From positions 53,166,001-53,230,000 of the forward strand of contig CM065818.1 of assembly GCA_033398695.1 (NCBI GenBank): 64,000 bases of DNA. The letters are read 5' to 3'. Below are positions 8,535-63,212 of the stretch, in pieces. Under the pieces are notes generated by a model that was given only the letters and a program-made list of their open reading frames with translations, did not search any database and was not told where the DNA came from. Origin of the DNA: Orobanche coerulescens (taxonomy: Eukaryota > Streptophyta > Magnoliopsida > Lamiales > Orobanchaceae). Numbering within the stretch: position 1 is the first letter of the stretch; the number at the start of each line of letters is the position of its first letter. Both the position numbers and the translations under genes were made by a program.

Positions 8535-9020
8535 GAGTTACTAGTAAGGTTACGAGCTACGGCCGTAAGTCACGGAGTACGTCCGTAAGGCCGATTCTGG
8601 CCGTAAGTAAGTGGTGTTCGTATATTTCGGGTGTTGTCGACCAAGGGTGACTTACGGCCGTAAGGGTTGCGGCATACTAGTAAGTCGAGGTGTACGGCCG
8701 TAAGACTTGGCCGGATACGGCCGTGCTGCGGGAAGGATGTCCGCCATTTTTGACGAAGGCGGGTTACACCGTAAGGTTGGCCGGATACGGCCGTATCATC
8801 CGAGTTACGGCCGTAAGGTGTGCGACGGCCGTAAAGCTGTCGCGACGGTGTTTTTGTGAAGGCGGGTTACGCCGTAACTCAGAGCGATTACGGCCGTAAG
8901 TCTGTCGGCGAGCTTTCGGACGAGCGAGTTACGGCCGTATGAGTTGGCGATTCTGGCCGTAAGGCCGTTGACTTGGAAAGTTACGGCCGTAAGAGGGCCG
9001 ACTTACTACCGTAACTTCCG
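8535..9020 (+). repeat. Cluster of TTACGGCCGTAA palindromes in LTR U3 (left copy)
   Basis: About fifteen copies or near-copies of the 12-bp palindrome TTACGGCCGTAA, spaced roughly 20 to 50 bp apart, ending just before the TATA-like box. Two copies here read TACTAGTA where the right LTR has TACGGCCGTA, and several carry 1-2 base deletions. Confidence 0.9.
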
Positions 9021-9032
9021 ATATTTATAGTT
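9019..9032 (+). promoter_or_regulatory. Putative TATA box of the left LTR
   Basis: 'gatatttatagt' lies right after the last palindrome and before a pyrimidine-rich leader ('tttttcctcattttcttcatttt'). That is the expected U3/R boundary layout. Confidence 0.55.
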
Positions 9033-10660
9033 TGGTAGGGACACTTTTTCCTCATTTTCTTCATTTTCACTTTCTTCTTCCTTTTTGTCCGAGAGAGAGC
9101 TTGGGGAAAGGGATTCTTCCTTCATCAAACACTTGTGTACTTGAGTTTCTTCATTTCCATTCGATCATATAGCTCGGATACTCGTTTTAACTCGTGTTCT
9201 TCGGATCGAAGTGGTTGGATCTTCTAGAGGTAATTTCTTCAACATCTTGGATTTCGATTTTGTGTTGAGATATGATGTTTTGGACGTTATAATCATGTTA
9301 TATGAAGGGATATGTGTATGATTATGAGTTTGTATAAGGATTCATTGGATTATTGAGGGATTATTCAAGAACACTTTGAATATCGAGTTGGATTTGGAGA
9401 TTTTCGACTAATTGTTGTTATAATCACGTTTTTGGATATTCGTTGTGGATAATTAATCGTATTGAATATGTTTTGTTGGTTTGAAACACTTCTTGGGGGA
9501 TTTGGTATTGGTATATTGAGGTTTGATTGTAAACAATCGGAGTTTGGACGCAACGTGTTTGATTCAATGCCTCAATGGACTTGGTTTAGTCGTATCGACG
9601 TGTTGAGTTCGTTATATTCATGTTTGTACGTATATTAATCGGATTGTTGGTAATTGAATTGTTCAAGGTTGTTCGAGCGACCGATATCTCAATTAGGACA
9701 TTGTTCGTGGAAGGATAATTATCACCGGTGTTGAGTAAGTTAATTCTTACTCGGTTAAAAGGATATTCATACCTTTTGTTGTTGATTATTCATGATCATA
9801 CCTCATTCATCATTGTATTAATCATATTAAAACTTGTTATTGTCAATTAATCACTTCAGTCATAAGGAACGACGGTTCTAATCTTTTCGTTGAGCTATCA
9901 TTCATTTCATTATTACTCTCATCTCGGTGAGTCATTCTTGACTTTGTCAGATTATTACTTATCCATTGATATTCATTACGGTCATTCTCGTTCATATGAC
10001 CTTCTGGGTTCATATTGCGTGGCCGGGTGTGGCTGTGTGGAATTTTTAGTCGGGCACACGATGGTTATTGTATTGGGTTCACCGATACATTAGACCGTGC
10101 ACACGGGAAAGCGTTACACCGTGAGACTAATTAGGTACACGGACGGGTGTTGTACACTCACACAGAATATTACGGGCGTACTATGATACTCCTCTCCAGC
10201 GTAATTCATAGCTAAGAATATTTCATAACTTCAGTTAATCATAATTGTGTATTTTCAACCCTTGAGGATTGTTGTTCTGCTTAATCGACCCATTTGGGAT
10301 TTTGTTTTTCAGTCGTGGCAAGGCAAACGCACGGAATAGCGAGTTGATGTCGAGGAGTCCCAGTGATACTAGTAGGGGCCCCGATCTTTCGATTATTCAT
10401 GTTATTGTCCTTTATTTTCCATTGCAGACTTTCATTTGAATACTCCGTTTCATCCGGTGTGGTGTATTTTATCTTCATATAAAATACACTAGTATTGATA
10501 TTGTCTGGTGTGTTGTAACTAAACTCCTCATCGGAGTAATTATTGTTGTAATGTAGTTCGGTACTACATTTATCCCGTATAATTCATTCATTTTCAATTG
10601 CACGGTGGGTCCCGGTTGGGGATCTACGACCGTATTATCCTCCTAGTTTGGGGTGTTACG

Positions 10661-10676
10661 AGTTGGTATCGGAGCG
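10661..10676 (+). other. Primer binding site, tRNA-Met type
   Basis: 'agttggtatcggagcg' directly follows the left LTR. It matches the usual plant primer site TGGTATCAGAGC with one change. Confidence 0.8.
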
Positions 10677-11186
10677 TGGTTTTGAATACTATCTTCCGAG
10701 TCATGTCTCATTTGAAATCATCGTCATCGACTAGTATCATTGGACTTTCGCGTCACGTGTGACTGTGCAAATGCCGAGCCAATCGATAGGAAGAAGCGTA
10801 AGATTTCTAACGCCATGGTATAATTTCTGCAATAGTTATTCATTCATCATTCATCATTTAACAATCCTCAAACATCATCATTCATTGTGATTAGGCGATC
10901 ATGTTAACTCATTAATCACTTAATTCATTTCATTACTCGTTAATGATCGGGACGATCTTGTTAATTCATTTATTACTCAATTCATTTCATTACTCGGTTG
11001 TCGATCCGGATGATCATATTTTTAATCTTGTTAAGTTATTCAGGATAATCATTTCAAGAATTTCCTCGAGATAATCATGTCACTTGATAAATCATTCATA
11101 TAATCACTAAGTTAGAGCATGTATACTCATTTTCATCATCTCATGACGTAATCATAACATGATAATCATGCGGAAATATAATCATT
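10677..11186 (+). other. Untranslated leader of the Tekay element
   Basis: AT-rich with repeated 'attcattcatcattcat' and 'ttactcgttaat' words. No reading frame of note before the gag remnant. Confidence 0.5.
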
Positions 11187-11804
11187 TTGCGACCTTCCTA
11201 CTTCAGTATGGACAGAGCTGTCAGGGGATGCACGGGAAGAGGCCGCGGTGCGGGCCGAAACCCGAGGAATAATCACTCGCTGCCGGGAAATCGTGCCCAG
11301 GACTCGGCTCGATCAGAAGATGTTCGGGTTGATCCACTCACTTTTATGCAGGCCATGATGACCCATGTGCAGTTGCTCAATCATCATTGCGCCACTCTGG
11401 CCGGATTAATCGAGAGAACTCTCCCGTATGAGCCAGCTGCTAAGGAAAGTGTTGAACAACAACCTTCATTTGTCAGCAGGAAATCAACGAAGCGTAATCG
11501 GTCCGAGAGCGGTCGGTCAACCTCCAAGAAACCTCGTGCGGGTCCTATCGTTTCTGAGCGACCTCCTACGGCACCTAATCCTGCGGGATCTCAGTCCCGA
11601 CGATCGATTCGGCCATCATCTGTTTCAAGCGTAGGCGCGGCCATTTCAAGACTAGGTGTACGACGCCGTCTATCACATGTCATAATTGTGGGAATTCTGG
11701 GCATAAGGCCCGTTTTTGCCGAAAGGACTCCAAGTCGGCCCGCGGTATCTCGTGCCCCGAAGCAATCGGCGTTTGAATCGGACTACTTTGTCAACGTCGT
11801 TTAA
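11187..11804 (+). pseudogene. gag remnant with out-of-frame zinc knuckle (Tekay element)
   Basis: The frame at about 11208 begins MDRAVRGCTGRGRGAGRNPR, the Arg/Gly-rich N-terminus usual for Tekay gag. It runs on to MMTHVQLLNHHCATLAGLIE and a Lys/Arg/Ser-rich linker. The central gag (capsid) domain expected between these parts and the zinc knuckle is missing. The knuckle is present in another frame at about 11665-11735 (CHNCGNSGHKARFC), so a frameshift separates the two. The protease that should follow is not recognisable. The element therefore cannot make a working capsid protein. Confidence 0.75.
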
Positions 11805-12320
11805 GACAATGGAAGCAAATAGAGTTGGAGCTCGTATTTATCGACGGGAGCGTCCGGTTCGGGGGGCAAGTCCTGCATTCATATGATGGGGAGGATCGAC
11901 GATCCGGTGGACCGAATGATTTCAGGTATACTCGTAATTTTATTTCAACTTGTGTGTACCTTTTGATTCTGGTACACCGTATTCATTCATTTTCGAATCA
12001 TGTTGTAATAGACTTATTTTGGGATAGTCCTATTACTTGTGGACCTCATACCATCGGTCTACCTGGCGATGGAAGAATTTTCGGAATCATACCGAAGTAA
12101 GCTTAGTGACCGCGATTGATTGATGGACCTAATCGTGGTGAATTTTATCTTAGGACGATGTAATTTTCGGTGTTAGTTGGGTTGATCGTTTTGTTACTAT
12201 CCTTAATGTTTGTTAGCGTTTGGTCGCTATCTTTCCGTCGTTGGTTGTCGAATGTGTACTTCAGGAGTAATCCGTTGTTCCAGTAGAATTATTATTAGGG
12301 CGGAAGCAGAGAGATTCCGC
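11805..12320 (+). other. Decayed gag-pol linker
   Basis: Between the zinc knuckle and the minisatellite I see no intact protease motif. Short frames here are chance or heavily degraded remnants. Confidence 0.4.
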
Positions 12321-12705
12321 AATCGATCTATTCAATCATTCATTATATCATTTCCATCGATTGGCCTTTCTAAGGCAATCGAGTCATTCAATCATTCATT
12401 GTTTCATTTTCATCGATTGGCCTTTCTAAGACAATCGAGTCATTCAATCATTCATTGTATCATTTTCATCGATTGACCTTTCTAAGGCAATCGAGTTATT
12501 CAATCATTCATTTGCGTCATTTTCATCGATTGACCTTTCTAAGGCAATCGAGCTATTCAATCATTCATTGTGTCATTTTCATCGATTGGCCTTTCTAAGG
12601 CAATCGAATTATTCAAACATTCATTGTATCACTTTTTATCGATTGACCATTCTAGGGAAATCGAAATGTTCGATCATTTGTGGTATCATTGTCATCGATG
12701 GACGA
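12321..12705 (+). repeat. 56-bp minisatellite with hairpin-forming units inside the Tekay element
   Basis: Six to seven tandem copies of a unit of about 56 bp: 'attcaatcattcattg', 'tatcattttcatcgattg', 'cctttctaaggcaatcga'. Each unit holds an inverted repeat, TCGATTG-n-CCTT against AAGG-CAATCGA with a TCT loop. Later units are more diverged. It lies where protease and the start of reverse transcriptase should be. Confidence 0.9.
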
Positions 12706-12759
12706 CGTATTTCCAGACGAGTTATTTGGTTGTCTTCACATAGAGTAGTGGAGTTCAGG

Positions 12760-13400
12760 AGTGAGTTGGAGCCGGTACGTCCCCTTAATCGAAGGCACCG
12801 TATCGGATGGCCCCGACCAGAATGCAGGAGTGGAAGACTCAACTTGAGGAGTAGTTCGAGAAAGGTTATCGCCGACCGTTTGCGTCCCCGTGAGGAGCAC
12901 CAGTGTGATCTGTCAAGGAGAAGGATGGCTTGTCTCGTGTGTGTATAAATTATCAAGAGTTGAACAGGGTGATGATCAAGATTAGTACCCTTACCCGTAA
13001 TGATAATCTTTTAGATCAACTTCAGGGAGCTTCAGTATCTTCCAGGATCGACTTAAGATCTGAATATCACCAGTTGCGGATTCGAGAGTCGGATATCGCG
13101 AGGACGGCGTTTCGAACACGCTATGGTCATTATGGGTTCGTAGTTATGTCGTTCGGGCTAACTAATGCACCTGCGTTATTCATGGAGTTAATGAATCGGG
13201 TTTTCATCGACTTTTTGGATCAGTTTGTTGTTGTCTTCATCGACGACATTTGGATTTATTCTCGTAGCCGAGAGGAACACGAGGTTCATCTTCATCAGGT
13301 TCTCGACGTGATGAGACGAGAGCAACTTTATGGAAAGTTTTCCAAGTGTGAGTTCTGGAGGTCCGAAATGACTTTCTCGGGCATGTAATTTCATCTGACA
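12760..13400 (+). pseudogene. Reverse transcriptase remnant (Tekay element)
   Basis: Starts in one frame around 12810 (APTRMQEWKTQL, KGYRRPFASP), then continues in the frame of 12930 with [45 protein letters not shown] and [11 protein letters not shown]. The catalytic box usually written YxDD is FIDD here. The segment stops at 13386 (FSGM), with '[17 protein letters not shown]' readable in the next frame. Multiple stops and frame changes make it non-functional. Confidence 0.85.
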
Positions 13401-13856
13401 GAGTTCGTGTCGACCCTCAGAAGACGGAGGCTGTCCGAGATTGGCAACCTCCGAAAGATGTTAAGTAAATCCGAAGTTTCCTCGGATTAGTTGATTAATT
13501 ATTCAACCCACGACTGTAGCTAGCAACCGTGGTTTTCGCGTTGGAAATTGGCGTCATTACCTTTATGGCGTCACCTGTCAGTTATTCACCAATCACAAGA
13601 GATGAAGTATATATTTACTCACAAGGAGTTAAATATGTGACAGAGGCGGTGGTTGGAACTAATCAAAGATTATGATATCGAGGTCCTTTGCCACCCGGGC
13701 AAGGCGAATGTTGTCGCCGACGCCTTGAGTCGTAAGTCCGTTCTAGAGCAGATGCTTGCTCGTTTAACAGTTCAGAAGGAACTTCAGCAGGAATTCCTTA
13801 GACCCGAGATCGAGGTCCGGCTTCAGCGAGTTCAGGAACAGCTTATATGTTAGAGA
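13401..13856 (+). pseudogene. RNase H remnant (Tekay element)
   Basis: A shortened connection/RNase H region. Around 13620-13856 the readable part is [31 protein letters not shown], the typical end of gypsy RNase H and start of integrase. Upstream, the usual RNase H acidic residues are lost to a deletion and stops. Confidence 0.8.
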
Positions 13857-13989
13857 TTTCATCATCTCTTGAGAAGGAAATCAGGGAGAATCAGGGTTCA
13901 GATTCATTTTGTTGATCATCCGCGAGGATGTGGTACAGGGGAAAGCCCCTGGATTTGTGGTCCACGAAGATGGACTCTTGTGATTTGAG

Positions 13990-14745
13990 AATCGGTTGTG
14001 CGTACCGGTGAATGATGAGTTGAAAAACTCGATCTTGAGAGAAGCTCATGCTACCCCATATCCGGTTCATCCGGGGTCTAGTAGGATGTACAAGGACTTG
14101 AAACGAAATTTCTGGTGGAGTAATATGAAGCGAGAAGTCGCGGAATTTGTTTCGAGATGTTTAGCCTATCGAAGTCAATATGGAACATCGGCGACCGTGA
14201 GTATGCGATACCGCTCCTATTCCGAATGGAAGTGGGAAGACATTTCTATGGAATTCATCACGAGTTGCCGACGAGTCGTCGTGGCATGAATACGATCCGA
14301 GCGATCGCGGACTACTTTACTAATTAGCTCATTTCCTTGAAATCAAGAATATGTGGGGTCCCGAGAGACCGGCGATTGTTCATCAAGGAAATAATGAGAC
14401 TTCACGGTACCCCTAACGATCGTTTCGATCGTGACGATTCGTGTCCCATTTTGGAAATCGATTCGTCGTCTATGGGAACTCAATTTGAATCTCATTACCG
14501 TTTTTCATCCTCGGTCAAGCGGACAATCGGAGAGGACTTTTCGGACATTGGAGGACATGTTGAGGGCATGCGTCCTCGATTAGTAGAGGATTGGGAAGCC
14601 CAATTCTTGTTGTTTGTGTCCACGTATGCTTTAGTTAGCATCTGCGATGAAGGTAGCACCTTACGAGGCTGGTACGGTTGTCGTTGTCGATCTCCCTTGT
14701 GTTGGGACGGCCCATCGAATCAATCAAGACCGAGCCCGATATGCT
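13990..14745 (+). pseudogene. Integrase remnant (Tekay element)
   Basis: The zinc-binding part is readable (REAHATPYPVHPGSSRMYKD, then FWWSNMKREVAEFV and a CLAY where the second Cys pair belongs). The catalytic core is degraded into several frames (EDISMEFITS, MRLHGTPN); no continuous D,D(35)E core can be traced. The context between RNase H and chromodomain confirms identity. Confidence 0.8.
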
Positions 14746-14759
14746 TATTAGCCGCCCGT

Positions 14760-15246
14760 GAGAAGGTAGCTTTGATCGGGAGACGTCTGTTGACCGCTCG
14801 AGTCGGCGAAATCATATGCAGTGTCGTAATCGCCATCGACCACTAGAGTTCGAGACGGTGATCCGCTTTTGGTCAAGGTATCCCGGAGTCGAGGTATTCT
14901 CCGTTTCGGAAAACGGGGGAAGTTGAGTTCGAGATTCATTGGACCGTGTGAGATTTTGAATCGAGTAAGCGAGTTAACTTATCGATTGGCCCTATCTCTG
15001 TTGTTGGGCCGAATTCATAATGTGTTTCACGTCTCGCACATACTTCAGTTCGACGAAATCGAGATCGCAGATGATCATTCGTATGAGAAGAGCCCCATAC
15101 GAGTGTTGGAGCGGCAAATCAAACAGTTGAGGAATAAGGCGATTCCTTTGGTTAAGTTTCAGTGGTCTAGACACGGAGTCGAAGAGGCCACTTGGGAAAC
15201 CGAGGAGAGTATGCGGGGGAGTTATCCCGAGTTGTTTGACCCTTAG
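14760..15246 (+). pseudogene. Integrase C-terminus with chromodomain (Tekay element)
   Basis: The frame from 14869 encodes KVSRSRGILRFGKRGKLSSR, FIGPCEILNRV, LLGRIHNVFHVSHIL and then the chromodomain-like end RVLERQIKQLRNKAIPLVKF, WSRHGVEEATWE, SYPELFDP. Compared with the second Tekay element at 63455-64000, about eleven residues after 'FHVS' are missing here. Chromodomains of this class are thought to direct integration to heterochromatin. The segment is open, but its upstream integrase is broken. Confidence 0.85.
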
Positions 15247-15263
15247 TTTCGGGGACGAAACTC

Positions 15264-15280
15264 TTTTAAGGGGGGGAGTA
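15264..15280 (+). other. Polypurine tract of the Tekay element
   Basis: 'ttttaagggggggagta' immediately precedes the right LTR and would prime plus-strand DNA synthesis. Confidence 0.8.
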
Positions 15281-15599
15281 TGTAATACCCGGCTATAATT
15301 CATTCTGTATCACTCAGTAATTTTCACTCATTAATAATCACTCATCATTCATGAATCACTCTTTTGCGTTCAATGTTGGCATGTTGTAATCGTATATCAG
15401 TTACCGATCGTCATTTTATCTCCGTTTTTAGATCGAGACGGGAGTATGATCATTTTCATTGTGATTGATAGCCTTGTACTGGGAGTATCATCTTTGGATC
15501 GTGTTAGACTTATTCACTTCCACATTCGTATGATATGTCGGATCATTCATCAGTCGTAGCGAGGAATCGGAATTATCGGATTGATTCACCTTGGCCAGC

Positions 15600-16103
15600 A
15601 TCGAGTTACGGCCGTAAGGTTCTGAGCTACGGCCGTAAGTCAGCGGGTACGTCCGTAAGGCTGGCCGGTTACGGCCGTAAGTGGTGTTCGTATATTTCGG
15701 GTGTTGTCGACCAAGGGTGACTTACGGCCGTAAGGGTTGCGGCATACGGCCGTAAGTCGAGGCAGGTACGGCCGTAAGACTTGGCCGGATACGGCCGTAC
15801 GTTGCAGGAAGGATGTCTGGCCATTTTTGACGAAGGCGGGTTACACCCGTAAGGTTGGCCGGATACGGCCGTATCATTCGAGTTACGGCCGTAAGGTGTG
15901 CGGTACGGCCGTAAGGCTGTCGACGGGTGTTTTTGACGAAGGCGGGTTACGCCCGTAACTCGAGCGAGCATTCTGGCCGTAAGTCTGTCGGCAGCTTTCG
16001 GACGAAGCCGAGAGTTACGGCCGTATGAGTTGGCGATTCACGGCCGTAAGGCCGTTGACTTGGAAAGTTACGGCCGTAAGAGGGCCGAGTTACGGCCGTA
16101 ACT
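15600..16103 (+). repeat. Cluster of TTACGGCCGTAA palindromes in LTR U3 (right copy)
   Basis: About eighteen full or one-mismatch copies of TTACGGCCGTAA between the U3 start and the TATA-like 'gatatttatagt' at 16109-16120. Spacing is irregular. Many copies are followed by AGG or AGT. Confidence 0.92.
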
Positions 16104-16108
16104 TCCGG

Positions 16109-16122
16109 CGATATTTATAGTT
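16109..16122 (+). promoter_or_regulatory. Putative TATA box of the right LTR
   Basis: 'cgatatttatagtt' about 8 bp after the last palindrome, followed by the same pyrimidine-rich leader as in the left LTR. Confidence 0.55.
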
Positions 16123-17755
16123 TGGCGGGACACTTTTTCCTCATTTTCTTCATTTTCACTTTCTTCTTCCTTTTGTCCGAGAGAGAGATTGGGGAAAGGG
16201 ATTCTTCCTTCATCAAACACTTGTGTACTTGAGTTTCTTCATTTCCATTCGATCATATAGCTCGGATACTGCTTTAACTCGTGTTCTTCGGATCGAAGTG
16301 GTTGGATCTTCTAGAGGTAATTTCTTCAACATCTTGGATTTCGATTTTGTGTTGAGATATGATGTTTTGGACGTTATAATCATGTTATATGAAGGGATAT
16401 GTGTATGATTATGAGTTTGTATAAGGATTCATTGGATTATTGAGGGATTATTCAAGAACACTTTGAATATCGAGTTGGATTTGGAGATTTTCGACTAATT
16501 GTTGTTATAATCACGTTTTTGGATATTCGTTGTGGATAATTAATCGTATTGAAGATGTTTTGTTGGTTTGAAACACTTCTTGGGGGATTTGGTATTGGTA
16601 TATTGAGGTTTGATTGTAAACAATCGGAGTTTGGACGCAACGTGTTTGATTCAATGCCTCAATGGACTTGGTTTAGTCGTATCGACGTGTTGAGTTCGTT
16701 ATATTCATGTTTGTACGTATATTAATCGGATTGTTGGTAATTGAATTGTTCAAGGTTGTTCGAGCGACCGATATCTCAATTAGGACATTGTTCGTGGAAG
16801 GATAATTATCACCGGTGTTGAGTAAGTTAATTCTTACTCGGTTAAAAGGATATTCATACCTTTTGTTGTTGATTATTCATGATCATACCTCATTCATCAT
16901 TGTATTAATCATATTAAAACTTGTTATTGTCAATTAATCACTTGATCATAAGGAGCAGCGGTTCCAATCTTTTCGTTGAGCTATCATTCATTTCATTATT
17001 ACTCTCATCTCGGTGAGTCATTCTTGACTTTGTCAGATTATTACTTATCCATTGATATTCATTACGGTCATTCTCGTTCATATGACCTTCTGGGTTCATA
17101 TTGCGTGGCCGGGTGTGGCTGTGTGGAATTTTTAGTCGGGCACACGATGGTTATTGTATTGGGTTCACCGATACATTAGACCGTGCACACGGGAAAGCGT
17201 TACACTGTGAGACTAATTAGGTACACGGACGGGTGTTGTACACTCACACAGAACATTACGGGCGTACTATGATACTCCTCTCCAGCGTAATTCATAGCTA
17301 AGAATATTTCATAACTTCAGTTAATCATAATTGTGTATTTTCAACCCTTGAGGATTGTTGTTCATTTAATCGCCCCATTTGGGATTTTGTTTTTCGTGTC
17401 GTGGCAAGGCAAACGACGGAATAGCGAGTTGATGTCGAGGAGTCCCAGTGATACTAGTAGGGGGCCCCGATCTTTCAGTTATTCATGTTATTGTCCTTTA
17501 TTTTCCGCTGCAGACTTTCATTTGAATACTCCGTTTCATCCAGTGTGGTGTATTTTATCTTCATATAAAATACACTAGTATTCGGTATTGTCCTGGTGTG
17601 TTGTAACTAAACTCCTCATCGGAGTAATTATTGTTGTAATGTAGTTCGGTACTACATTTATCCTGTATAATTCATTCATTTTCAATTGCCTGGTGGGTCC
17701 CAGTTGGGGATCTACGACACTTTATTATCCTCCTAGTTTGGGGTGTTACAATGAT

Positions 17756-26505: not shown

Positions 26506-27633
26506 AACTGCCAAAAAGCATACGATGTAAAGTTTTTCCCTTTTTATTATTTACATGGGTTATTCTAAAATTGATGAAAAAGTATTAATTTTACATCGTT
26601 TTTGGAATAACTAATGTAAATTAATCTAATTTTAATTTTTACATCAGTTATTCAAAATCAACGTAAAATTACTATTTTATACATCGGTTTTGGATTAGTC
26701 AATTTTATTCTTTTTTGTATTATTTCGAAAAAATGATTTTTTATTTTTAATTTTTTTATATTTTAAAGAATCATCGTAAATAAAAATACATGTTTTCAAA
26801 AAAAGGATTTTATGACCGTTTTAGAGAAACCGATGTAAAATTTACCATTTTTATTTTTATTCCAAAACCGATGTAAAAAGTATTAATTACATCGATTTTG
26901 GAATAACTCGTGTAAATTTATCGTATTTTTAATTTTTACATCAGTTATTCTATAACCAATGTAAAATTAATACTTTATTTTATATCGATTTTGGAATAAC
27001 TTATGTAAATTACAATATTTAAAATTTTACATCGGTTGTTTGTATAACTGATGTAAAAGAATAATAATTTTACATCGGTTATTTGAACAACCGATGTAAA
27101 AATAGTAATTTTAGTTTTTACATCGGTTGATTGAACAACCGATGTAAATATATAAATTTTACATCGGTTATTTGAACAATCGATGTAAAATATAATAATT
27201 TTACACCGGTTATTTGAACAACCGATGTAAAGTATAATAATTTTACATCAGTTATTTGAACAACCGGTGTAAAGATATAATAATTTTACATCGGTTATTA
27301 TAACAACCGATGTAAAAAATAGTAATTTTAATTTTTACATCGGTTATTTGGACAACCGATGTAAATATATGATTTTTTACATCGGTTATTTTAACAACCG
27401 ATGTAAAATATAGTAATTTTAGTTTTTACATCGGTTATTTGGACAACCGGTGTAAATATATAATAAGTTTACATCGGTTATTTGAACAACCGATGTAAAT
27501 TGACCAAAATTTTATTTTTTGCATTGGTTTTATTTGATAACCGATGTAAATTGACGGTATTTTTAATTTTTACATCGGTTTTCGTTAAACCGATGTAAAT
27601 TGAGCGTCATAAAAAGTATATTTTGTAGCAGTG
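26506..27633 (-). mobile_element. CACTA-like non-autonomous element made of palindromic subterminal repeats
   Basis: The minus-strand end at 27633 reads CACTGCTACAAAATATAC, a CACTA-type terminus. The body is about eighteen alternating copies of 'ttttacatcggtta' and 'aaccgatgtaaaa' on both strands, arranged as inverted pairs of about 30 bp (arms ACATCGGTT and AACCGATGT around a loop such as ATTTGAAC) repeated about every 45 to 50 bp. The far left end, near 26506 ('actgccaaaaagcatac'), is only a weak partner. Repeats are more diverged to the left (26570-27000) than to the right. No transposase. Confidence 0.7.
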
Positions 27634-29202: not shown

Positions 29203-29432
29203 TGTTTAAGGAGAAAGTAAAAGACAGCAAATCAATTGTATTGTTAACAATGAATAGGGGGGCCTTTATATAGGCATTACATAAGAGTCCTTCCATACAT
29301 AGGATTCCTAGTTAAGGTAAGACATCTAACAGGATCCTACTACCTCTGGAAGAGTCTAGAACCTTCCATAACTCTATCCCCCCACAACCAGTATTAGGTA
29401 AGACACCAATAAGGAAAGGATTTCCCAGAACA
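29203..29432 (-). repeat. Copia 3' LTR
   Basis: Copy of 36164-36382, with a short extra segment ('aaggagaaag') near its outer end and about ten substitutions. A minus-strand TATA-like 'TATATAAAGG' lies in the middle. Confidence 0.9.
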
Positions 29433-36163: not shown

Positions 36164-36382
36164 TGTTAAAAGACAGCAAATCAATTGTATTATTAACAAT
36201 GAATAGAGGGGTCTTTATATAGGCATTACAATGAGAGTCCTCCCATACATAGGATTCCTAGTTAAGGTAAGACATCTAACAGGATCCTACTACCTCTGGA
36301 AGAGTCTAGAACCTTCCATAACTCTATCCCCTTACAACCAGTATTAGGTAAGACACCAATAAGGGAAGGATTTCCCGGAACA
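36164..36382 (-). repeat. Copia 5' LTR
   Basis: 219 bp, plus strand 'tgttaaaagacag...' to '...cccggaaca', followed by target duplication ATAAT. Confidence 0.92.
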
Positions 36383-41708: not shown

Positions 41709-42261
41709 CATAGTTGTCAATCGCGCATAGCGCCCCATAGCGACAAGGTCCCCTATGGCTATAACGATCGCTATAGCGAATAGCGAGGGCTATTTGAAAG
41801 TAAAGCTCCACAAGTATATAAATACATAATATATAGCATGTACCACATTTAATTCAAAATTTCATGCATATTGAAATATAATATAAATATAAGTTCAAAG
41901 AACAGAAAACATCAATTTTAATACTAGAAAAACATAATATAAAATTCATCGTACCTAAAAACACGTTTCAGATTTTGGGTTTTTAATTTTTTAAAGATTT
42001 ATCTTGCCCATAAACATGTTTCTTGTTGGAATAGAAAAGCGCAACTTATAAAAACGTCCCAGAAAATTAAGAAAAAAATAGAAAAAGAAAACCTGGAATG
42101 CATGAGATATGATATAGCGCCGCTATTCTTGCTATCGCGATCGGCGCTATAGCGAGGATAGCGCTCGCTATCCAAAAAGCCATAGCGATGCGTAGCGATG
42201 AAGCTTCGTTTCGCATCGCTCTTCGCTATAGCGAGCGCTCTGGGCGCTATTAACAACTATG
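41709..42261. mobile_element. hAT-type MITE rich in ATAGCG palindromes (553 bp)
   Basis: TIR CATAGTTGTYAAT at both ends. Flanking 8-bp repeats CGATCAAC (41701-41708) and CAATCAAC (42262-42269) differ at one base, as expected for an older hAT insertion. Both arms are filled with 'gctatagcg' words forming hairpins. Confidence 0.85.
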
Positions 42262-43685: not shown

Positions 43686-43689
43686 ACTG

Positions 43690-44660: not shown

Positions 44661-45439
44661 CATAGTAGTCAATAGCGGCCGCTACGGCCGGTATAGCGGT
44701 TAGCGACGCGAAGCGGCCACCTATCGCTATCGGCTGCTATACGCTAGGGGTTTCTGAGTAGCGGCCGCGAACCACCTCTAATAGCGGTAACTCAGTTTAG
44801 CGATGGCGGCCTTAGCGGCCGCTAAATTTCTTTTTTTTTTTTAAAACAATAAAGGGCCTAGCCCTAGTTACCCTCCCGACTGACTCCCCCGTTTCTTTTT
44901 CTTTCTTTTGTTTCTTTCTTTTTTGAAATAATAAAGGCCCAGCCCTAATTAACCCTCCCGACTCCCCGTTTCTTTTTCTTTCTTTTCATTCCTACGTATT
45001 TTCCTCCTGCGCCGAAGTCCAGACTCCAGTTCACCCCCCCCCCCCCCCGCCCGCCGCCGAGTGCCTTAACCCTCCTAAGCTTGTGATATTGACGAATCCG
45101 ATTCCGATGATGATGACTTTGGCATCAGTATTTTAGATGATTAAATTTAATTGAGCATTTGAACTAGACTTTGTTTGCTCTTAATGTTTTTTATTCTAGT
45201 AATCGATTTCCATTTGACGTTTCATCTTTGATGACGATTAATGAACTAACTAGACTTTGTTTTCACTTTAATGAATTTAGTTATTGCCTTACTTGTTTAT
45301 ATATATATATTTATATATATCACTTTTTACAAACTTGTCGCTATATTTGAATTTAGTGGCCGCTATTGTACCACTATCGCTTATATAGCTAAACGGGCAC
45401 GTGACCGCTACGGGCCGCTAATCGCCATTGACTACTATG
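44661..45439. mobile_element. hAT-type MITE rich in AGCGGCCGCT palindromes (779 bp)
   Basis: Perfect 8-bp target duplication GTGGGGAA at 44653-44660 and 45440-45447. TIR CATAGTAGTCAAT. The empty site can be inferred from repeat copy A, which has the same 'gtggggaagc' uninterrupted. The arms contain 'tagcggccgcta' hairpins, and the middle has a C-run (about 45037-45051). Related in end sequence and style to the element at 41709. Confidence 0.9.
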
Positions 45440-45496
45440 GTGGGGAAGCGGACATGAAGGAGCAGTGGGCTTAATATACGTCACTTAAGGCGATTA

Positions 45497-45830
45497 ACGT
45501 ACATAACAAGGTCGGGTTACGTACGTAAACATTGGATCAGGTCAGTCCAAATGGATGTCCACTAGGTGGAGCCACGTATGCAGAGGTCGTGCTAGCAAGT
45601 AGCTAGCTTGCTGAAAATCAAGTCAATGTTGGTTAAGTGCGCAAGGTGAGAGGACTTACGTACGTAAAGTCTGTAGGTTAGGATAGGCTAATACGGTGAT
45701 TTACATACTTAAAGGTGTTACTTAAGGTTAAGACAGTAACTACAGGGCTCAAACTAACATATGTAAAGGATGTTACTTACGTATGTAAGATGGGGTTGAC
45801 ATACGTAAGGCGGTTGAACTTACGTACGTA
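45497..45830 (+). repeat. Cluster of TTACGTACGTAA palindromes
   Basis: About eight copies or variants (TTACGTACGTAA, ACATACGTAAG, TTACGTATGTAAG) over 330 bp. Confidence 0.8.
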
Positions 45831-46434
45831 TACCTCGTTCATTTCAGCCGTTTTCAACTTTGTGCTTGAGCTTCCAGAGCTGCGTTATTTACCTAATTTC
45901 ATATGTTGAGCCTCTGCAACTTGGACTTTTAGTTTGTTGGAGTGTTGGATTGGCGTGCAAGCTCGAGAAGTCCGTTTCTACTGATTGTAAGTACATTTTT
46001 TGTCATGTTAAGGTATGTGTTAGTTTATGAATATGAAGAGTTCCGGAGTATATATCATGTTTAGAATGAACTATGATGAATTCTTGAATTTATGAATTGA
46101 TATACACGGACGATTATGGAATTTAGATTACATCTTGTAGTCTGTCACTATGTTGAGATTTTGGACAAATTGTTGATTGTTAGGGAGTTGTTTTGAAACT
46201 TTGGAGGATTTATGAATTTAAGAGAGTTTATTGTAAGATCAGTGGTGATTTTTATGAATTAGTCTGAATTATGTGCAAGTAAAAGAGAATGATGTTGAAT
46301 TCGATTGAAGTGGAGTTAGAGTTGATGTTTAATAAAGATATGGGAGTTTGATTATGTTGGTCTTGATAGTATGATCGAATGTGATTATGATTGTAGAATT
46401 GTTCGACCAGTGAGACCGTAATAAATTCGTGATT

Positions 46435-46732
46435 GTTGATCATTTAGAAATTATAAGTTGTACGATTTGAGATTGTATTGTGTTTAATTGACTTGTTAGA
46501 ATCATTAGTTATGATTTAAGGTTTGGGTGTTGTGAAGGTTGATGAGGGGGTTGATTCTAATCGATCTAATTATAGTCGTGGTTCGTTGATCATTTAGAAA
46601 TTATAAGTTGTACGATTTGAGATTGTATTGTGTTTAATTGACTTGTTAGAATCATTAGTTATGATTTAAGGTTTGGGTGTTGTGAAGGTTGATGAGGGGG
46701 TTGATTCTAATCGATCTAATTATAGTCGTGGT
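46435..46732. repeat. Exact 149-bp tandem duplication
   Basis: 'gttgatcatttagaaattat...atagtcgtggtt' occurs twice head to tail with period 149. I saw no differences. Confidence 0.92.
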
Positions 46733-47139
46733 TTAATGAAATTATTTTGATTATAACTTCTATGTTCTTGCAACGAAAATGTGAAATGATGTTTTCTTGT
46801 ATATGAAATGAATGTGAATGATGTTGTTCACCTGGTGAGGATCTGACAGAGCCGCTGGGGATTAGGTAGCCGTGATTCCAAACACAAACACAGGTTATCC
46901 ACCTGGTGATTACCCGATGGGGGGCCTCCGGGATTCCTTAATCGAGACTCGGAATCCGAATAACCATGATGGCTATGACATTCAATTATGAGACGTGGAC
47001 TATTTATGTTTTTGATGATATTTCTAATTTCTATTTGTTATGTGAAGCATATGTGAATGCTTTTGGTACAATGTTCAGAAACTTATGATGATATTCTAGC
47101 TAAAAAAATGTGGGGATGGAGCCAATTGCCACCTCCTTG

Positions 47140-51396: not shown

Positions 51397-51427
<31 letters not shown>

Positions 51428-53983: not shown

Positions 53984-53992
53984 CACTCACCC

Positions 53993-55854: not shown

Positions 55855-55862
55855 TGAGACGT

Positions 55863-55949
55863 TTTTGATATTTATGACTAGTTTGTTTGATTATTCAGAA
55901 ATTGAAAGCAGGTAATGAAAATAATTAAAAATTCAGAATATTGAGCAAA
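55863..55949. other. Truncation point of the copia fragment
   Basis: AT-rich sequence of unclear origin. Confidence 0.3.
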
Positions 55950-56360
55950 AACATAAAATACCGACGGCATTACCGACGGAAAAACTGCAGTTGAAAAATT
56001 ACCGACGCCCTTTTACCGTCGGTAAAATGCGTCGTGATTTACAGTTTTACCAACGGCTGCAAGGCCGTCGGCAATAGTAAATTAGCGACGGCTAAATTCC
56101 GTCGGCAAAGGCGTCGTCATTGTTCCGTTTAACAATGCCAGGCCCGGCGTCGTTATTGCAAAACTAACGATGGCAACACGACGTCGTAAATTCCGTCGGC
56201 CGTGGCGTCAGTAGTGGCGTCGGTATCCGTCGGCAAAACCGTCCCAGTTTCAGGTCACCCGGGGATTGCCCGACGCCAACGGCGTCAGGAAGCCGTCGGT
56301 AATTTACGCCACGAAATGGCGTCGGTAATTTTTTACCGTCGATCAGTTTTCCAACGCCCT
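55950..56360. mobile_element. CACTA-like subterminal repeat array (CCGTCGGTAA)
   Basis: At least fifteen copies of 'accgacgg', 'ccgtcggtaat' and 'ggcgtcg' variants on both strands, forming inverted pairs, much more GC-rich than its surroundings. The style matches subterminal regions of CACTA elements, but neither CACTA terminus is visible. Confidence 0.5.
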
Positions 56361-56383
56361 TCATTACCGCTGTAATGCTCCAT

Positions 56384-56991
56384 ACTTCACGATAAAAAAG
56401 ATCAATGTACGACCGTAATGTTCGAGTGTTTACAGCAATAAGGTGCTCTTGTCAAAATATGATCCAGCAAGTTAGTTGAATTTCATGTAAAGGCCTACAG
56501 CCATATTGGACCTTGTTTTATGGTCGTAAGCATCGTATGAGTTTTGATACTTAATTTACTTAAGGGAGTTACGATCGTAAGGAGGTATATGTTATTTCCG
56601 TAACATCATTTTTCTATATATAGGGGGAGCAAATTTTTTTGCTCATTTGCACATCCCCTCGCCCCTTCGTGATTTCTGAGTGCGCTTGAGTGTTGTTGAG
56701 TGTTCTTGGAGAGTTGGATACTTGGAGAATCATAGTTAATCATCCATGAAAGAATATAACAAGCATATCAATTGATCAACATTGTTCATCCGAATCTAGG
56801 TGAGTTGACGTTTTGATTTTGAAGAGGTTGATGATTTTCGTATGGGTTTTCATTTTGAGTTGGTTTATATTGTTGTTGGGTGTATAATCATGATATATAT
56901 GGGTACATATATGTGATTATAAGATATATATGATTATCACTTGAGTTTCTTATATTGGTGTTGAAGAACACCTTGAATGTGGGTTACGAAC
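56384..56991 (+). mobile_element. Tekay-type LTR fragment with TTACGATCGTAA palindrome
   Basis: Palindromes (GTACGACCGTAA, TTACGATCGTAA, TTCCGTAAC), then TATA-like 'tctatatatagggg' at 56615 and a leader. 56880-56985 matches the order of the Tekay LTR at 9285-9390 ('ataatcatg.tatat', 'gaacaccttgaatgtggg'). Cut off at the LINE junction. Confidence 0.65.
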
Positions 56992-57345
56992 ATGAAGAAA
57001 TATAACTTAGAAATACCAGCACATGTACGGAGAAGCAACAATTCGCATTGAGGGTCATTGAGTTTGGCAACGGCCTCCATAAGTTCAATAGTTTTAGCAA
57101 CCCTTTTCAGGACCAACTTACTACCAAACTCAAAATCCACACCAACAGGTCCACCCAATAATTTAACACCATGAGAGGGGCGGGAAATATTGGGGGGAAA
57201 AACACCGACATACCTGCTTCTGGAATCCTCCTGTGGCCAAAAGACTTCAGTTTTATCAACATTGAGGTGTAGGCCACGACAAGGTCCATCCGCCATAATC
57301 AACTCCAAAATCTTACCCACAACCAAGGTGTCACCGTAAGGTAGA
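56992..57345 (-). pseudogene. LINE reverse transcriptase C-terminal part (5' segment of the split LINE)
   Basis: The minus strand encodes GDTLVVGKILELI, GLHLNVDKTEVFWP, HGVKLLGGPVGVDFEFGSKL and ECELLLLRTCAGISKLYFF-like residues, the region after the catalytic Asp-Asp box. It continues into the fragment at 52633-51397 (next residues C-S-P-R-V-F-E). The catalytic box itself lies at or beyond the 5' truncation near 57345. Confidence 0.75.
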
Positions 57346-57531
57346 ACTTACTATGGCCACAACTCTCAGTATGAAATTCCCATAATATCAAATAGACGAT
57401 TAAGGATGAGTATGATCAAAAGATAATGACATGCAATATTCATTCCATACAATCTCAATATATGAATACAACGTAAAGGCAGCGAGTGCAATTACTATAA
57501 AAATGAAAAATTATACCCCATATATTATAGT
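57346..57531. other. Intergenic sequence, nothing recognised
   Basis: AT-rich, no supported frame. Confidence 0.4.
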
Positions 57532-58580
57532 TAGGGGTGAAAACGGATCAGATACGGACGGATAGTGCTCTTCCTATATCCTAATCCATATTTTTCTCTC
57601 GGATTCGGAGTCGGATATGGCCGGATACGGATATGAATTCGGATTATTCGGGATACGGACACGGGACGGATTCGGGCCGGATTCGAATAAATATAATCGG
57701 ATAATACGTGTCATACAAAATCGTTTGGAAGTGATTGCAGCATATAAAAAAACTACCTACACAATATTTCATAAAAGTTCTAATGCAAACTATAGTAATT
57801 TTTTTAAAAATCGTTTCATAATAAGGTCCCTCATTTTTACTTATTCAATCTCTCCCATAAAAAACATAAGCTCCATACTTAGCAAAGACTAAATAGTGTT
57901 AATTTAATTGCTTTTAACAATTATTATAATATATATAATTGCCCCTCTATTTACTTGAATAGAACATTTCTTTTAAAATACATTTCATATGAAACAAATA
58001 GTTTATAAGTTAGTATTAAAGTGTTTGGCTAATACATTTCTTTTAAAAAATATTTTTTTTTCAAAAAAATAATTTTTTTTCCGAAATATAATTTTTTTCC
58101 AGAAAATAAATTTTTTTATTTTTCGCAAAAAGTAATTTTTTTTATTTTTTTCAAAAAATATAAAAAATCCAGAAAATAATTTTATTTTTTCGAAAAAATA
58201 ATATATTTTTTCCAGAAAATAATTTTTTTTTCGAAAAAATATTTTTTTGCCAAAAATAATTTTCTCCAGAAAATATTTTTTTAATATTTTTCGAAGAAAT
58301 AAAAAATTTCCATAAATAATGTTTTTTTGAAAAGATAATTTTTTTCCTAGAAAATTTTATTTTTTATTTTTTTGAAAAATAATATATTTTTCCAGAAAAT
58401 ACTTTTTTTTTTTGAAAAAAATATTTTTTTCTTGAAAGTTTGAAAATTTATTACACTGAAGCCCAAAAGTGATTATATATATATATATATAAAATAAAGT
58501 ATATTTAAAATTTAAAAATATGGATATCCGGATTTATTATCCGGATTGGTATCCGGATAATATCCGATAAAGTTTTGTGG
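57532..58580. mobile_element. hAT-like remnant with GGATACGG/ATCCGGAT subterminal repeats
   Basis: The left end 'ttaggggtgaaaacggatc' is followed by 'ggatacggac' repeats (57540-57700). 'atccggat' repeats reappear in inverse form at 58520-58572. The expected right TIR is missing. Confidence 0.45.
58055..58440. repeat. Degenerate T-rich tandem repeat
   Basis: A unit of about 20 to 40 bp built from 'ttttttccagaaaataa' and 'tttttcgaaaaaataa' repeats about twelve times with strong variation. Confidence 0.7.
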
Positions 58581-58589
58581 GTATTGTAG

Positions 58590-60312
58590 TGGTAAGGATA
58601 AATATTGTGTAGTTGTAATACTTTTCTAGATAGTATATTTTCTTACTTGGTCCTGGTGGTTTTTCTACGGTTTGGGAGTTTTCACGTTAAAATCCTTGTG
58701 TTGTTATTTCTCTATTTTGCTTCCTACTTCTACAAGAGCAGTTTATGGCGAGAGAATTTGGAGGGCCAAATTCCCAACAAGTGGTATCATATCCAAGGTT
58801 CTGGTAAAGTGGAGCATTTGCTGGGGTGGAGTTTTGGTGTGGTGTAGTGTGTATACATACAGTCGAAGGAGATTCTGTGTAGGGAAATTGGTTTTTAAGT
58901 GGGACTAGTCTGACCGCACCAATTTTTTCGGGAATCTTCAAGTTCTGTCTAGTAAAGATTGAGATTCTCTCTTTCCTGAGAGCTTACTTAGTGTGTCTAC
59001 TATTCAAGTCTACTGTAGAATTCACCAAAGTATCACAAGAAAATGTCAGGAAGCAGAGTTTCAAATGCCGTCAGATTTGATGTAGAGAAATTTGATGGGA
59101 AAATCAACTTTGTCTTGTGGCAAATACAGGTCAAGGATGTGTTGATTCAGTCTGGTTTACAAAAGGATTTGAAGGGCAAGGTTACTCTGTAAGTAGCGGT
59201 GATGCTATCATAGCCAGTGAAATTGCTAGTGGAACGAACAAAACTAAAATGAGCAATGATGATTGGGAAGATTTAGATTTGAGAGCAGCTGGTGCGATCC
59301 GTCTATGCCTGGCCAAAAATGTTCTTGCAAATGTGCATGGGGCATCTAAGGCAAAAGGGCTCTGGAAAAAACTTGAGGAGTTGTATCATATAAAAGGCAT
59401 CTCAAATTGGGTATATTTGAAAGAGCAGTTTCATACATTATGAATGAATGAAGGTATTACTATTCCAGATCATTTAAGCATTCTCAATGATATTGTTTCT
59501 GAAATTGAATCTATTAGAGTTGTGATTGATGATGAGGATCAGGCCCTGAGACTCATTTGGTCTTTTCCACGATCATATGAGCACACTAAGCTGATATTAA
59601 TTTATGGGAAGGAGAAAATAATATTCTTAGACGTTACTAGTAAGCTTCTTTGGGAAGAGAGGAGGCTTGGTGGGAGTAACAATCCACATGAAAGTTATGC
59701 ATTTATAGCTCGTGATTGGAAAAAGAAAAACTCTATAAAGAATATTTGTTGGGGATGTGGGCAGTCTAGCCACATCAAGAAGAATTGTAAAGGTAGGGCA
59801 GGTTCGGCGAAAAGCTCTGTGTCAGCAAGTGGGAATGCGGATAATGAGGCTAATATTATCTCCGATCTTGATGTTTTTTTTAAAGGACATGTATATCCTT
59901 ATGGCATGGGTCCTAAAGATCCTATTATATAGGATATTAAATGTTATTGGGGACCACATTTTGCACATAAGCATTTGTTGATATTGATGCAGGGTGTGTG
60001 GTGGAATTTATGTCAATGGCTGATTAACTTCCATGAAAGTCAAATATAGGAGTTGCACCATAGTTTTCAGCAAGATTATATTTCGACATGTGTCGAGTTT
60101 AAATGCTTGGGATAGCTAGTTTCGAGTGATTGTGCTTTTATGGTGGAGCATGACTACATTTCAGTGATAGCAAAAGCTATGAGAATCTTCATCAAGGTGG
60201 AGCGTTGTGGGACCACAAAGTCACAAGGGGAAGATTGTTGGTGTTGGGACTTTTAGTCCCACATCGGGTAAAATAGAAAAGGGGGGTGAACCTCTTTGTT
60301 ATAAAATGAGGT
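58590..60312 (+). mobile_element. Gag-only copia element (TR-GAG-like), pol deleted
   Basis: A 5' LTR-like segment ends '...ttcccaaca' at 58779, followed by primer site 'agtggtatcatatcc'. Gag remnant 59043-59932. Then only about 300 bp, including 'gtggagcgttgtgggacc' and purine tract 'acaaggggaagat', before a 3' LTR start, 'tgttggtgttgggac', at 60236. The LTR is cut at about 60312. No protease, integrase or reverse transcriptase between gag and the purine tract. Confidence 0.75.
59043..59932 (+). pseudogene. Copia gag remnant
   Basis: ATG at 59043: MSGSRVSNAVRF, EKFDGKINFVLWQIQVKDV, LIQSGLQKDLKGK, then a frameshift near 59184 into the frame with WEDLDLRAAGAIRLCLAKNV, LWKKLEELYHIKG and KEQFHTL. 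An in-frame TGA at 59441-59443 follows, then DHLSILNDIVSEIES and a zinc knuckle CWGCGQSSHIKKNC at about 59749-59790. The arrangement is typical of copia (UBN2-type) gag. Two lesions make it non-coding now. Confidence 0.9.
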
Positions 60313-61039
60313 TGTTGGAATATTCTATTCTATATAATCATAAATTAGTTTTGATGATGTGTTGTCAAACAAACTAAAACAACAAAGGAAACAATTGATC
60401 GAAGCAAAACAACAAAGAAGTCGAAGATGCTCGAAACGGAGAGAAAAGTAAACAAGTGATGTTTTGACTGAAGCTAACATACGTAATCAGCAGAGTATAA
60501 CGTACGTAATGAAAAGTCACCTGAAGGTAGACGAGTAATGTACGCTAACGTACGATACATAACGTACATAATGAGAGGATACATAACATACGTAATGAGA
60601 TTTAAATATGAATTCAAATATTGGAACCGTTGAACGGATAGATGATGCCATGGAGTAGATCAGCATGCAACGGATATTTTGACTAAAGATAATGTACGTA
60701 AAGAGTGATATATAACGTACGTAAAGAAAAAAAATAGTTGCTACTGGACTGATTTTCATTATACTTAACGTACGTAATGAAGGAGTCTTAACGTACGTAA
60801 TGTGGTTAACGTATGTAATGGTGGACATATAACGTACGTAATGTAGGCAACATGGGCTAACGGCTAGTTAAGGCTCTATGCCTATAAATACCAATACATG
60901 TGGTATTATTCAAAACAACAACTGTGAGATAATCATATATATGTTTGATATCATAGTATACACTATCGTTGTTGTATTGTGCTTAATTGATAAGTGTTTG
61001 AGTGTTCATACACGAAAACATATACGAGAGGAAAGATAC
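60313..61039 (+). mobile_element. LTR fragment with AACGTACGTAA palindromes
   Basis: Begins 'tgttggaatattctatt', which looks like an LTR start, has the palindrome cluster at 60478-60845, then TATA-like 'cctataaatacc' at about 60889 and a leader. It is interrupted by the second Tekay element at 61040. Lineage uncertain; the start resembles copia SIRE-type LTRs more than Tekay. Confidence 0.55.
60478..60845 (+). repeat. Cluster of (T)AACGTACGTAATG palindromes
   Basis: About ten copies or variants, including TAACGTACGTAATG five times, spread over 370 bp upstream of a TATA-like box. Confidence 0.85.
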
Positions 61040-62633
61040 TGTAACACCCCAAACTAGGCGGATATTACAGTGCCGTGAACCCCCGACTGGGACCCACCAA
61101 GCGAATGAAAACTGATGAATTAAATAATATAATTGTAGTACCGAACCACATTATATTACCAAATACTCCGATGAGGAGCTTAAGTATAATACACAAGGAC
61201 AATACAGAATACGAGTATATTTTATATGAAGATAAAATACACCACTCTGAAAAAATAAACATCTCAAACGGAATTTGCAGCGGAAAATACAAATGACGGA
61301 AATGATAAATGAGAAATAACTTAGGAAGACCGGGCCCCCTACTAGTATCACTGGGACTCCTCGCCGTCAGCATGCTCTTCCCGTGCCTTTGCCTTGCCGT
61401 GACCTGAAAACAAAATCCCCCAACGGGGTCAGTTACACAGAACAACAATCCTCAAGGGTTGAAAATACACAATCATGATTTAAATGAAGTTATGAAATAT
61501 CCTTAGTTATGAATTACGCTGAAGAGGAGTATCATAGTACGCCCGTAGTGTTCTGTGCAAGTGTACAAGACGGATGACCGGACACACCCGTCCTTGTACC
61601 TATTAGTCTCACGGAGTTAATCTTTACCGTGTGCACAGCCCAATGTATCACTCCCAATACATGGCCATCACGTGCCCGACTAAAAATTCCACACATCCGC
61701 ACCCGGCCACGCAATATGAACCCAGAAGGTCATATGAACGAGAATGACCACAATGAAAATCAATGAATAATAATAATCTGACAAAGTCAAGAATGACTCA
61801 CCGAAATGAAAGTAATAATGAAGTGATTGATAGTTTCAATGAAATGATTAGAACTGCCGTTCCTCATTAATGAAGTGATTCTTCGACAATTACAAGTCTC
61901 AATATGATTAATAGAATGATGAATGAGTTATGATTATGAATGATCAACAACAAAAGGAATGAAATCCTTTTAACCGAGTAAGAATTAACTTACACAACAC
62001 CGATGAAGAATGTCCGTCCACGAACAACGTCCTAAATGAAATGTCGGTCGCTCGAACAACCTTGAATAACACAATTTACCAATAATTCAATCATTACACG
62101 AATCAAATACGATCATAACCGACTCAAACGTCGATACAACAATATCCAAACTCGAATATATCGAAACCAACTCCAAGATGAGTATTTCAAACCATCAAAA
62201 CAATATCAATGATATCAATAATCTCATAGGAATCCACAATTTCAAGATTACAACAATGTCAAACCGAAATCCCCAATTATCCGAAGTCAACCCCAAGGGT
62301 TCTTGATATAAATCCCCAAAATAGCCATTAAATCCGTAGGAATATATTTATCCTAGATAGATAATCCATATCTAACATATTCCAACAACAATCCAAGCCT
62401 ATACGAAGAAAATCGGAAGGAAAACCCAAAAATCCAAGTTCCTAGATCTAAGAGATTAATACCTTTGATTTGATGTGATGAAGATGATGAAATGATGATT
62501 AATCCGAATGATGAGCTTGAAGATGATGATTGATGATTACACCTCGAATAATACTCTCCAAATCGCCCGAAATCGCCCAAAACCGCCGAAGGAGTGAAGT
62601 GAGATGAAGAAATGACGAAATGGACTGCACTGT

Positions 62634-62648
62634 CCTATTTATAGTCAC
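62634..62648 (-). promoter_or_regulatory. Putative TATA box of the second Tekay LTR
   Basis: Minus strand GACTATAAATAGGAC, about 8 bp after the last palindrome at 62656-62667. Confidence 0.65.
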
Positions 62649-62651
62649 TCC

Positions 62652-63212
62652 TATTTAGCGTGCGCTAGCTCTTGTGCGTAGCGTATGCTAACGGGTATTT
62701 TGAGTAGTCCAGTACCCACTGTCCGGAAACGGTAGTGCGCGCTACATACCTATTTGTAGCGTGCGCTACGGCTATGCACACAGCGTGCACTAACCCCAAA
62801 ATGTTAGCGTGGGCTAACGAATTATCTGATGCCTAGTACTGGAGTCCATAACATTCTGTCCTCTGATCTGATCTCGGTAGCGTGCGCTACAACCAACGAT
62901 TAGCGTGCGCTACCACACCGTTTGCGTACGCTAAAAACCACTCTTAGCGTGCGCTATGAATAAATTCAATTCAGTCCAGTAGCCACTGGACTCAACCTGA
63001 TCCGACCTTAGCGCGCGCTACACCGACTGTACAGCATGCGCTACTCCGGCTCACTAGCGCGCGCTACGTACCATTCGTAGCGTGCGCTACCTACAATCCC
63101 AACTGCCTGCTCAACTACACTAGCGTGCGCTAGTGTTGAGAGGTGGCGTGCGCTACCAGTACTCAATTAGCGCACGCTAAAGAGAGTACTTAGCGTGCGC
63201 TACTTCTCACAC
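62652..63212 (-). repeat. Cluster of TAGCGYGCGCTA palindromes in U3
   Basis: About twenty copies or near-copies of TAGCGTGCGCTA and TAGCGCGCGCTA (also AGCGTGCACTA, AGCGTATGCTA) over 560 bp, at the same LTR position as the TTACGGCCGTAA cluster of the first element. Confidence 0.92.

Follow-up and report, generated by a model that had tools for sequence, protein, structure and literature searches.

Near-palindromic site arrays with near-helical spacing in Ty3/gypsy and other long terminal repeats of Orobanche coerulescens

Several long terminal repeats (LTRs) within one stretch of the Orobanche coerulescens genome (contig CM065818.1 of assembly GCA_033398695.1, positions 53,166,001 to 53,230,000) carry rows of a short near-palindrome, and the question raised by this locus is what such rows do and why the repeated sequence differs from one LTR to the next. 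The material was this single window of 64,000 nucleotides, whose own coordinates are used throughout, and the LTR pair of one Ty3/gypsy element, A, provides the sole second copy of any array family; the other arrays lie in the 3' LTR of an element B and in two further LTRs, C and D. Judged by the anatomy of the sites, the arrays are probably LTR enhancers, in which sites in phase with the DNA helix would be bound by a dimeric protein, likely a host transcription factor. Elements A and B, both Ty3/gypsy, are related on the alignment of their LTRs, and they have different palindrome arrays at a matching place.

A motif-blind scan (500-bp windows; 12-bp palindromes with at least 4 G/C and at most 2 mismatches; windows with at least 5 matches compared with 30 first-order shuffles each) picked up all five array copies in the four LTRs, A being present as an LTR pair. 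Each array holds 9 to 18 copies of a near-palindrome of 12 bp, many more than chance predicts. For element A, the array of the 5' LTR (A5, 8557-9014, plus strand) holds 14 sites of TTACGGCCGTAA when 3 mismatches are allowed, 4 of them exact, and that of the 3' LTR (A3, 15606-16101, plus strand) holds 18, all within 2 mismatches and 6 exact. Array C (45495-45831, plus strand) has 9 sites of TTACGTACGTAA with a limit of 3 mismatches (7 with a limit of 2, 2 exact), with a tenth match at 45885, outside the array; array D (60475-60841, plus strand) has 12 sites of TAACGTACGTAA under the 3-mismatch limit, 5 exact; and array B (62656-63202, minus strand) has 18 sites of TAGCGYGCGCTA, which appears as TAGCGTGCGCTA in the plus-strand listing, all within 2 mismatches. 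Over the whole window, TTACGGCCGTAA at up to 2 mismatches gave 39 matches versus 1.46 expected (shuffle maximum 5, n = 100), and TAGCGTGCGCTA gave 41 on both strands versus 1.29 expected. The frame common to the array types, TNRCGNNCGYNA, was matched 39 times versus 1.6 expected, with 32 matches in the five array copies, one in a stretch designated E and six elsewhere in the window. For TTACGTACGTAA the 32 matches (3.41 expected) include 13 that are copies of A and one that is the copy in stretch E. Besides the arrays, the scan picked up three further regions, 26876-27625 (a hairpin array), 41751-42250 (a DNA transposon) and 57751-58625 (an AT-rich repeat); the lone clear Ty1/copia LTR pair of the window (29218-29432 / 36167-36382) was not picked up. 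A previous sequence-only reading had named six LTR stretches rich in a 12-bp palindrome, and five of these correspond to the array copies described above. The remaining one, 56410-56606, would represent the GATC motif type, but the scan did not pick it up, and stretch E (56407-56580, plus strand) contains one exact TTACGATCGTAA at 56569 and two matches at 2 mismatches, so that a GATC-type array at this place was rejected.

In every array, start-to-start gaps of 20-24 bp are in excess of what random placement gives: A3, 12/17 (2.4 expected, P < 0.00005); B, 13/17 (2.3 expected, P < 0.00005); C, 5/9 (0.9 expected, P = 0.0003); D, 5/11 (1.5 expected, P = 0.007); and A5, 5/13 (1.6 expected, P = 0.013). 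When A3, B, C and D were pooled at up to 2 mismatches, 33 of 50 gaps fell within this range (null mean 6.4, null maximum 16); at 0, 1 and 3 mismatches the pooled counts were 4/17, 16/36 and 35/54, with null means of 0.9, 3.6 and 7.0. Longer gaps measure 43-45 bp (four cases) or 52-54 bp (five cases), with single gaps of 30, 38, 64, 73, 106 and 116 bp. For A3, B, C and D together (53 gaps), the best single period is 10.8 bp, slightly above the usual 10.5 bp, with a mean cosine of 0.59 that was equalled in none of 4000 random sets. Taken singly, the gap phase is significant in A3 (P < 0.00025), B (0.0005) and C (0.015), and a test on site positions agrees with the gap test (A3 0/1000, B 0.002, C 0.032, D 0.22, A5 0.20). 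Gaps outside 20-24 bp also keep the period in A3, B and C, with mean cosines of 0.64, 0.74 and 0.48 as descriptive values.

A row of such sites could also be a by-product of local duplication without any selected function. The spacers of B are no more alike than permuted ones (0.296 versus 0.297; site likeness 0.864), as are those of C (0.380 versus 0.387), and the six spacers of D are perhaps alike (0.417 versus 0.341, SD 0.036). As the B spacers are unrelated, a decayed tandem repeat or minisatellite, in which the spacer would be included in the unit, was rejected for this array; it is partly true for A, where one part of the array repeats another (15601-15799 versus 15878-16100, 67.5%) and the spacers are slightly alike. 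These two traits of A favor duplication, but the conserved sites of B lie amid unrelated spacers and the spacing is preserved across arrays with differing motifs, and the reading of the arrays as functionless by-products of duplication is considered very unlikely. Within 15600-16107, the A LTR pair differs by 51 substitutions and 12 gap events, compared with 29 and 12 in the remaining LTR, and this excess divergence may reflect turnover, alignment slippage or assembly error. Compared with A3, A5 has decayed further and shows less regularity, and a local assembly error there may be involved.

The composition of the motif also bears on how it might be read. According to the sequence-only reading, the motif types combine a constant arm, TTAC....GTAA, with a switching core. 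The arm is not constant, since D has TAAC..GTAA and B has TAGC..GCTA, and the part in common is the TNRCGNNCGYNA frame. The information content of the four central bases versus the arms is 2.14 versus 1.48 bits in A3, 1.64 versus 1.84 in B, 1.73 versus 1.53 in D and 1.42 versus 1.38 in C. Conservation within each array is thus about equal in centre and arms, so the whole 12-mer is the unit, with a centre that looks read rather than free; the motif does differ between arrays, but a "constant arm, switching core" code, like self-recognition, is unproven. For the same reason, a simple account of core switching, in which middle bases that no protein contacts would drift, was rejected. Classified by their middle bases, the copies in B show a predominant orientation (12 TG, 1 CA, 3 CG and 2 TA), with a weaker trend in D (TG on the right in 7/12, CA on the left in 2/12). 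A short half-site of array B, TAGCGNNCGCTA, has 14 copies in the window versus 0.01 expected, and the three outside array B lie within two short TAGCG-repeat-rich elements with inverted ends (CATAGTTGTCAAT.. / CATAGTAGTCAATAGCG..) at 41709-42261 and 44661-45439. This half-site is thus common to these elements and array B, for which a common binding protein, or an origin of array B from the elements, is possible.

All motif types have two CpGs in common, four bases apart, and the arrays of A, B and D have a CpG observed/expected ratio of 1.29-2.16, versus 0.92-1.25 elsewhere in the same LTRs. Such features might suggest that the arrays shape chromatin as CpG-rich, nucleosome-positioning or nucleosome-excluding DNA, with no single specific factor involved. 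However, the specific 12-mer conserved in each array exceeds what CpG richness needs, and array C is hardly enriched (1.08 versus 0.95), which leaves little probability for this explanation. CpG transitions among the mismatches are abundant in D (6/10) and C (6/14) but few in A3 (2/17), A5 (2/18) and B (4/14), which suggests methylation decay in D and C only.

With respect to the promoter, TATA-like boxes, called by pattern match only, start 7 bp past the last site in the A 5' LTR (9022-9029, plus strand), 10 bp past it in the A 3' LTR (16112-16119, plus strand), 12 bp in B (62637-62643, minus strand) and 41 bp in D (60883-60889, plus strand). A box also lies 34 bp past the exact TTACGATCGTAA copy of stretch E, which is a non-array. 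Dyad symmetry, near-helical spacing, the shared orientation of the B sites and a location shortly ahead of a TATA-like box are together the anatomy of an enhancer, and with the unrelated spacers of B they accord with the earlier suggestion of sites for a dimeric factor, the binding of which is deduced from this anatomy. In the mechanism that we favor, the ligand would be a sequence-specific dimer, probably a transcription factor of the host. Its copies would occupy neighbouring sites next to each other, perhaps cooperatively, the sites being mostly about two helical turns apart and placed just before the TATA-like box where one exists, and the bound array would raise LTR transcription. A role of this kind had previously been suggested for a different group of retrotransposons.

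Several observations weigh against the proposed enhancer function. For array C, no TATA-like box was found by the pattern used. The gap phase of D (P = 0.22) and A5 (0.10) is singly non-significant, and the long gaps of these two arrays are off-period (mean cosine 0.06 and -0.13). Array B alone fits a period of 11.0 bp better than 10.5 bp (P at 10.5 = 0.02). The A3 spacers are slightly alike (0.450 versus 0.396 permuted, SD 0.015), and this likeness together with the internal duplication implies that the gaps of A are not all independent. In addition, no transcription factor was matched to the array motifs, NAC-like half-sites having been considered with no usable support from the literature, and both binding and promoter activity are predictions from sequence.

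The comparison of A with B addresses the second part of the question, why the motif differs between LTRs. Element A is delimited by a 5' LTR at 8216-10660 and a 3' LTR at 15281-17750 (both plus strand), the former being 95.7% identical to 15281-17749 over 2483 columns, with an identical 5-base flank, ATGAT, on the outer side of both; its interior contains a Ty3-type reverse transcriptase fragment (12909-13388, plus strand; Pfam RVT_1, E-value 1.6e-23) and a minisatellite of 6.8 copies of a 56-bp unit (12319-12703). For B, the window includes the 3' LTR (61040-63420, minus strand), which is inserted in LTR D and is homologous to the A LTR at both ends, and the end of the coding region (63461-64000, minus strand), which matches Pfam SH3_Tf2-1, the integrase C-terminal SH3 domain (2.7e-27), and weakly Chromo (0.027, under the cut-off); the interior of B lies outside the window. 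A protein search with this coding end gave 6165 matches, of which the best 120 were considered. Among these, the best E-value belongs to Tanacetum (55% identity), followed by Orobanche and other entries at 69-72% over nearly the whole query; an Orobanche gracilis entry reaches 86% over 79% of the query, PF00385 is frequent, and the named entries are plants except for one labelled Morganella. By these matches the host would probably be a plant in or close to the broomrape family. The name Tekay for A and B is a label from the sequence-only reading and was not derived from a tree.

Between the A and B LTRs, the downstream ends match at 81.9% over 1.1 kb, and the interior end together with the 64 LTR bases that follow it at 82.6%. 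Between these ends lies a U3 stretch of about 1 kb in each element (15345-16372 on the plus strand in A, 62387-63356 on the minus strand in B), each holding an array, for which a sensitive search detected no similarity; a reversed control of the comparison also gave no match, and the adjoining A segment, 16373-16614, still matches B at 65%. As had been claimed, the related LTRs carry different motifs at the same position, but the non-alignment spans the whole U3 stretch, so the array differs as part of it and not by its core alone. In this pair of elements, the change may represent either replacement in one event or fast evolution. In either case one lineage would have gained or evolved a new U3, and hence other regulators, with LTR ends that stayed recognisable.

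A change of motif between relatives also fits a different kind of protein, encoded by the element itself or by a partner, which would bind the arrays to shield them from silencing, as VANC does for VANDAL, with co-evolution of protein and target changing the motif. The targets of VANC21 are short motifs in a single orientation and at high density that differ between related elements (PMC5735166, accessible part), and likewise the B sites share an orientation and A and B differ in motif. However, no extra gene was recognised by eye in the A interior, where three pieces lack a Pfam match and the reading frames are broken. A host factor is thus the most likely ligand, as far as the broken A and the part of B within the window allow, and an encoded protein is judged unlikely. 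VANC targets further differ from the present arrays in that VANDALs are DNA transposons, their motif YAGTATTAY is non-palindromic, and the binding protein is known and element-encoded (PMC5735166, same part).

The palindromes might instead act as RNA, in that folded read-through or 3' transcripts would serve as a source of small RNAs and target the LTR for silencing. The A3 (z -9.35) and B (z -5.00) arrays fold better than 100/100 shuffles, and the palindrome region of maize Sireviruses is described as a small-RNA hotspot (PMC5311732, PMC10760457, in the portions accessible). However, D shows no folding advantage over its shuffles (z -1.31; 12/100 as good), and hairpins were rejected as a feature common to the arrays. 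Folding also leaves the helical spacing unexplained and may be a consequence rather than a function, which makes an RNA role improbable. The interpretation as protein-bound enhancers is retained here as the probable one.

Arrays of this type are not without precedent. The repeated motif (RM) boxes of Sireviruses are palindromic and CpG-rich, number at least 8 in each element and form a cluster in the LTR ahead of the TATA box, with a motif that varies between elements and an unproven function, as described in the accessible part of a 2010 study that compared Ty1/copia elements (PMC2829016). The sequence-only reading was made without knowledge of this description. Arrays A, B and D resemble RM boxes as high-copy palindromic LTR motifs before a TATA-like box, and C as an array without such a box. 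However, the core CGG-CCG found in 12 of 13 published Sirevirus elements (PMC2829016) has its equivalent, a CGGCCG centre, in A only, and the frame in this window is TNRCGNNCGYNA. Unlike Sireviruses, A has a Ty3-type reverse transcriptase and B a Tf2-1-like integrase end, that is, neither is Ty1/copia. The near-helical spacing is a further difference, as no box-to-box spacing was found in the accessible part of PMC2829016, and so is the occurrence of unrelated arrays in two related LTRs. What is new relative to the Sirevirus description is that the array is carried by a Ty3/gypsy element, is phased and differs between relatives. In work by Bousios from 2016, the maize Sireviruses Ji and Opie reportedly have palindrome clusters of variable sequence in the LTR regulatory region, to which small RNAs were mapped. 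The present arrays are similar as sequence-variable clusters in that region (known for maize via PMC5311732 and PMC10760457, in part), and the difference lies in the small-RNA mapping shown for maize. Short interrupted repeat cassettes in Arabidopsis likewise combine short repeats with unrelated spacers and are common in mobile elements, but consist of 2-8 direct repeats, about 57% without palindromes, and no tie to LTR promoters was found in the accessible part of that source (PMC10342631). For Tekay or other chromoviruses, no report of such arrays was found in the open-licence literature, including the accessible parts of PMC6911290 and PMC11963269, which is weak evidence of absence. No relatives of two query proteins were found encoded in viral contigs, and two paired-palindrome patterns matched one viral contig each.

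The remaining features of the window are less directly connected with A and B. LTR D (60313-61039, plus strand) was placed by eye from its start, TGTTGGAATATT, which may be Sirevirus-like, and is cut by element B at 61040. For C and D, no linked coding sequence was identified. Downstream of array C there is a head-to-tail duplication of 150 bp with 98% matching (46427-46733). The hairpin array extends over 26540-27603 in units of about 42 bp, TTTACATCGGTT..AACCGATGTAAA, and presumably resembles the subterminal repeats of a DNA transposon. An AT-rich short-period repeat with TTTTTC/GAAAAA palindromes at 58031-58437 has no LTR link.

A broader, speculative and rather doubtful proposal is that a single promoter architecture is common to plant LTR retrotransposons, namely a helix-locked row of dyads at intervals of about 23 bp that can accommodate different site sequences. 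Related Ty3/gypsy families would exchange the site along with the U3 and thereby come under different regulators that co-evolve with them, and such a code would keep the families of one genome apart. This would address the open question of how retrotransposon families within one genome stay separately regulated. A repeated site with set spacing and an exchangeable sequence would provide a handle, in which the sequence would name the regulator and the spacing its binding mode, and pairs such as A and B permit direct comparison. If general, the architecture would extend the palindrome arrays of Sireviruses to Ty3/gypsy elements, which make up a large share of plant genomes.

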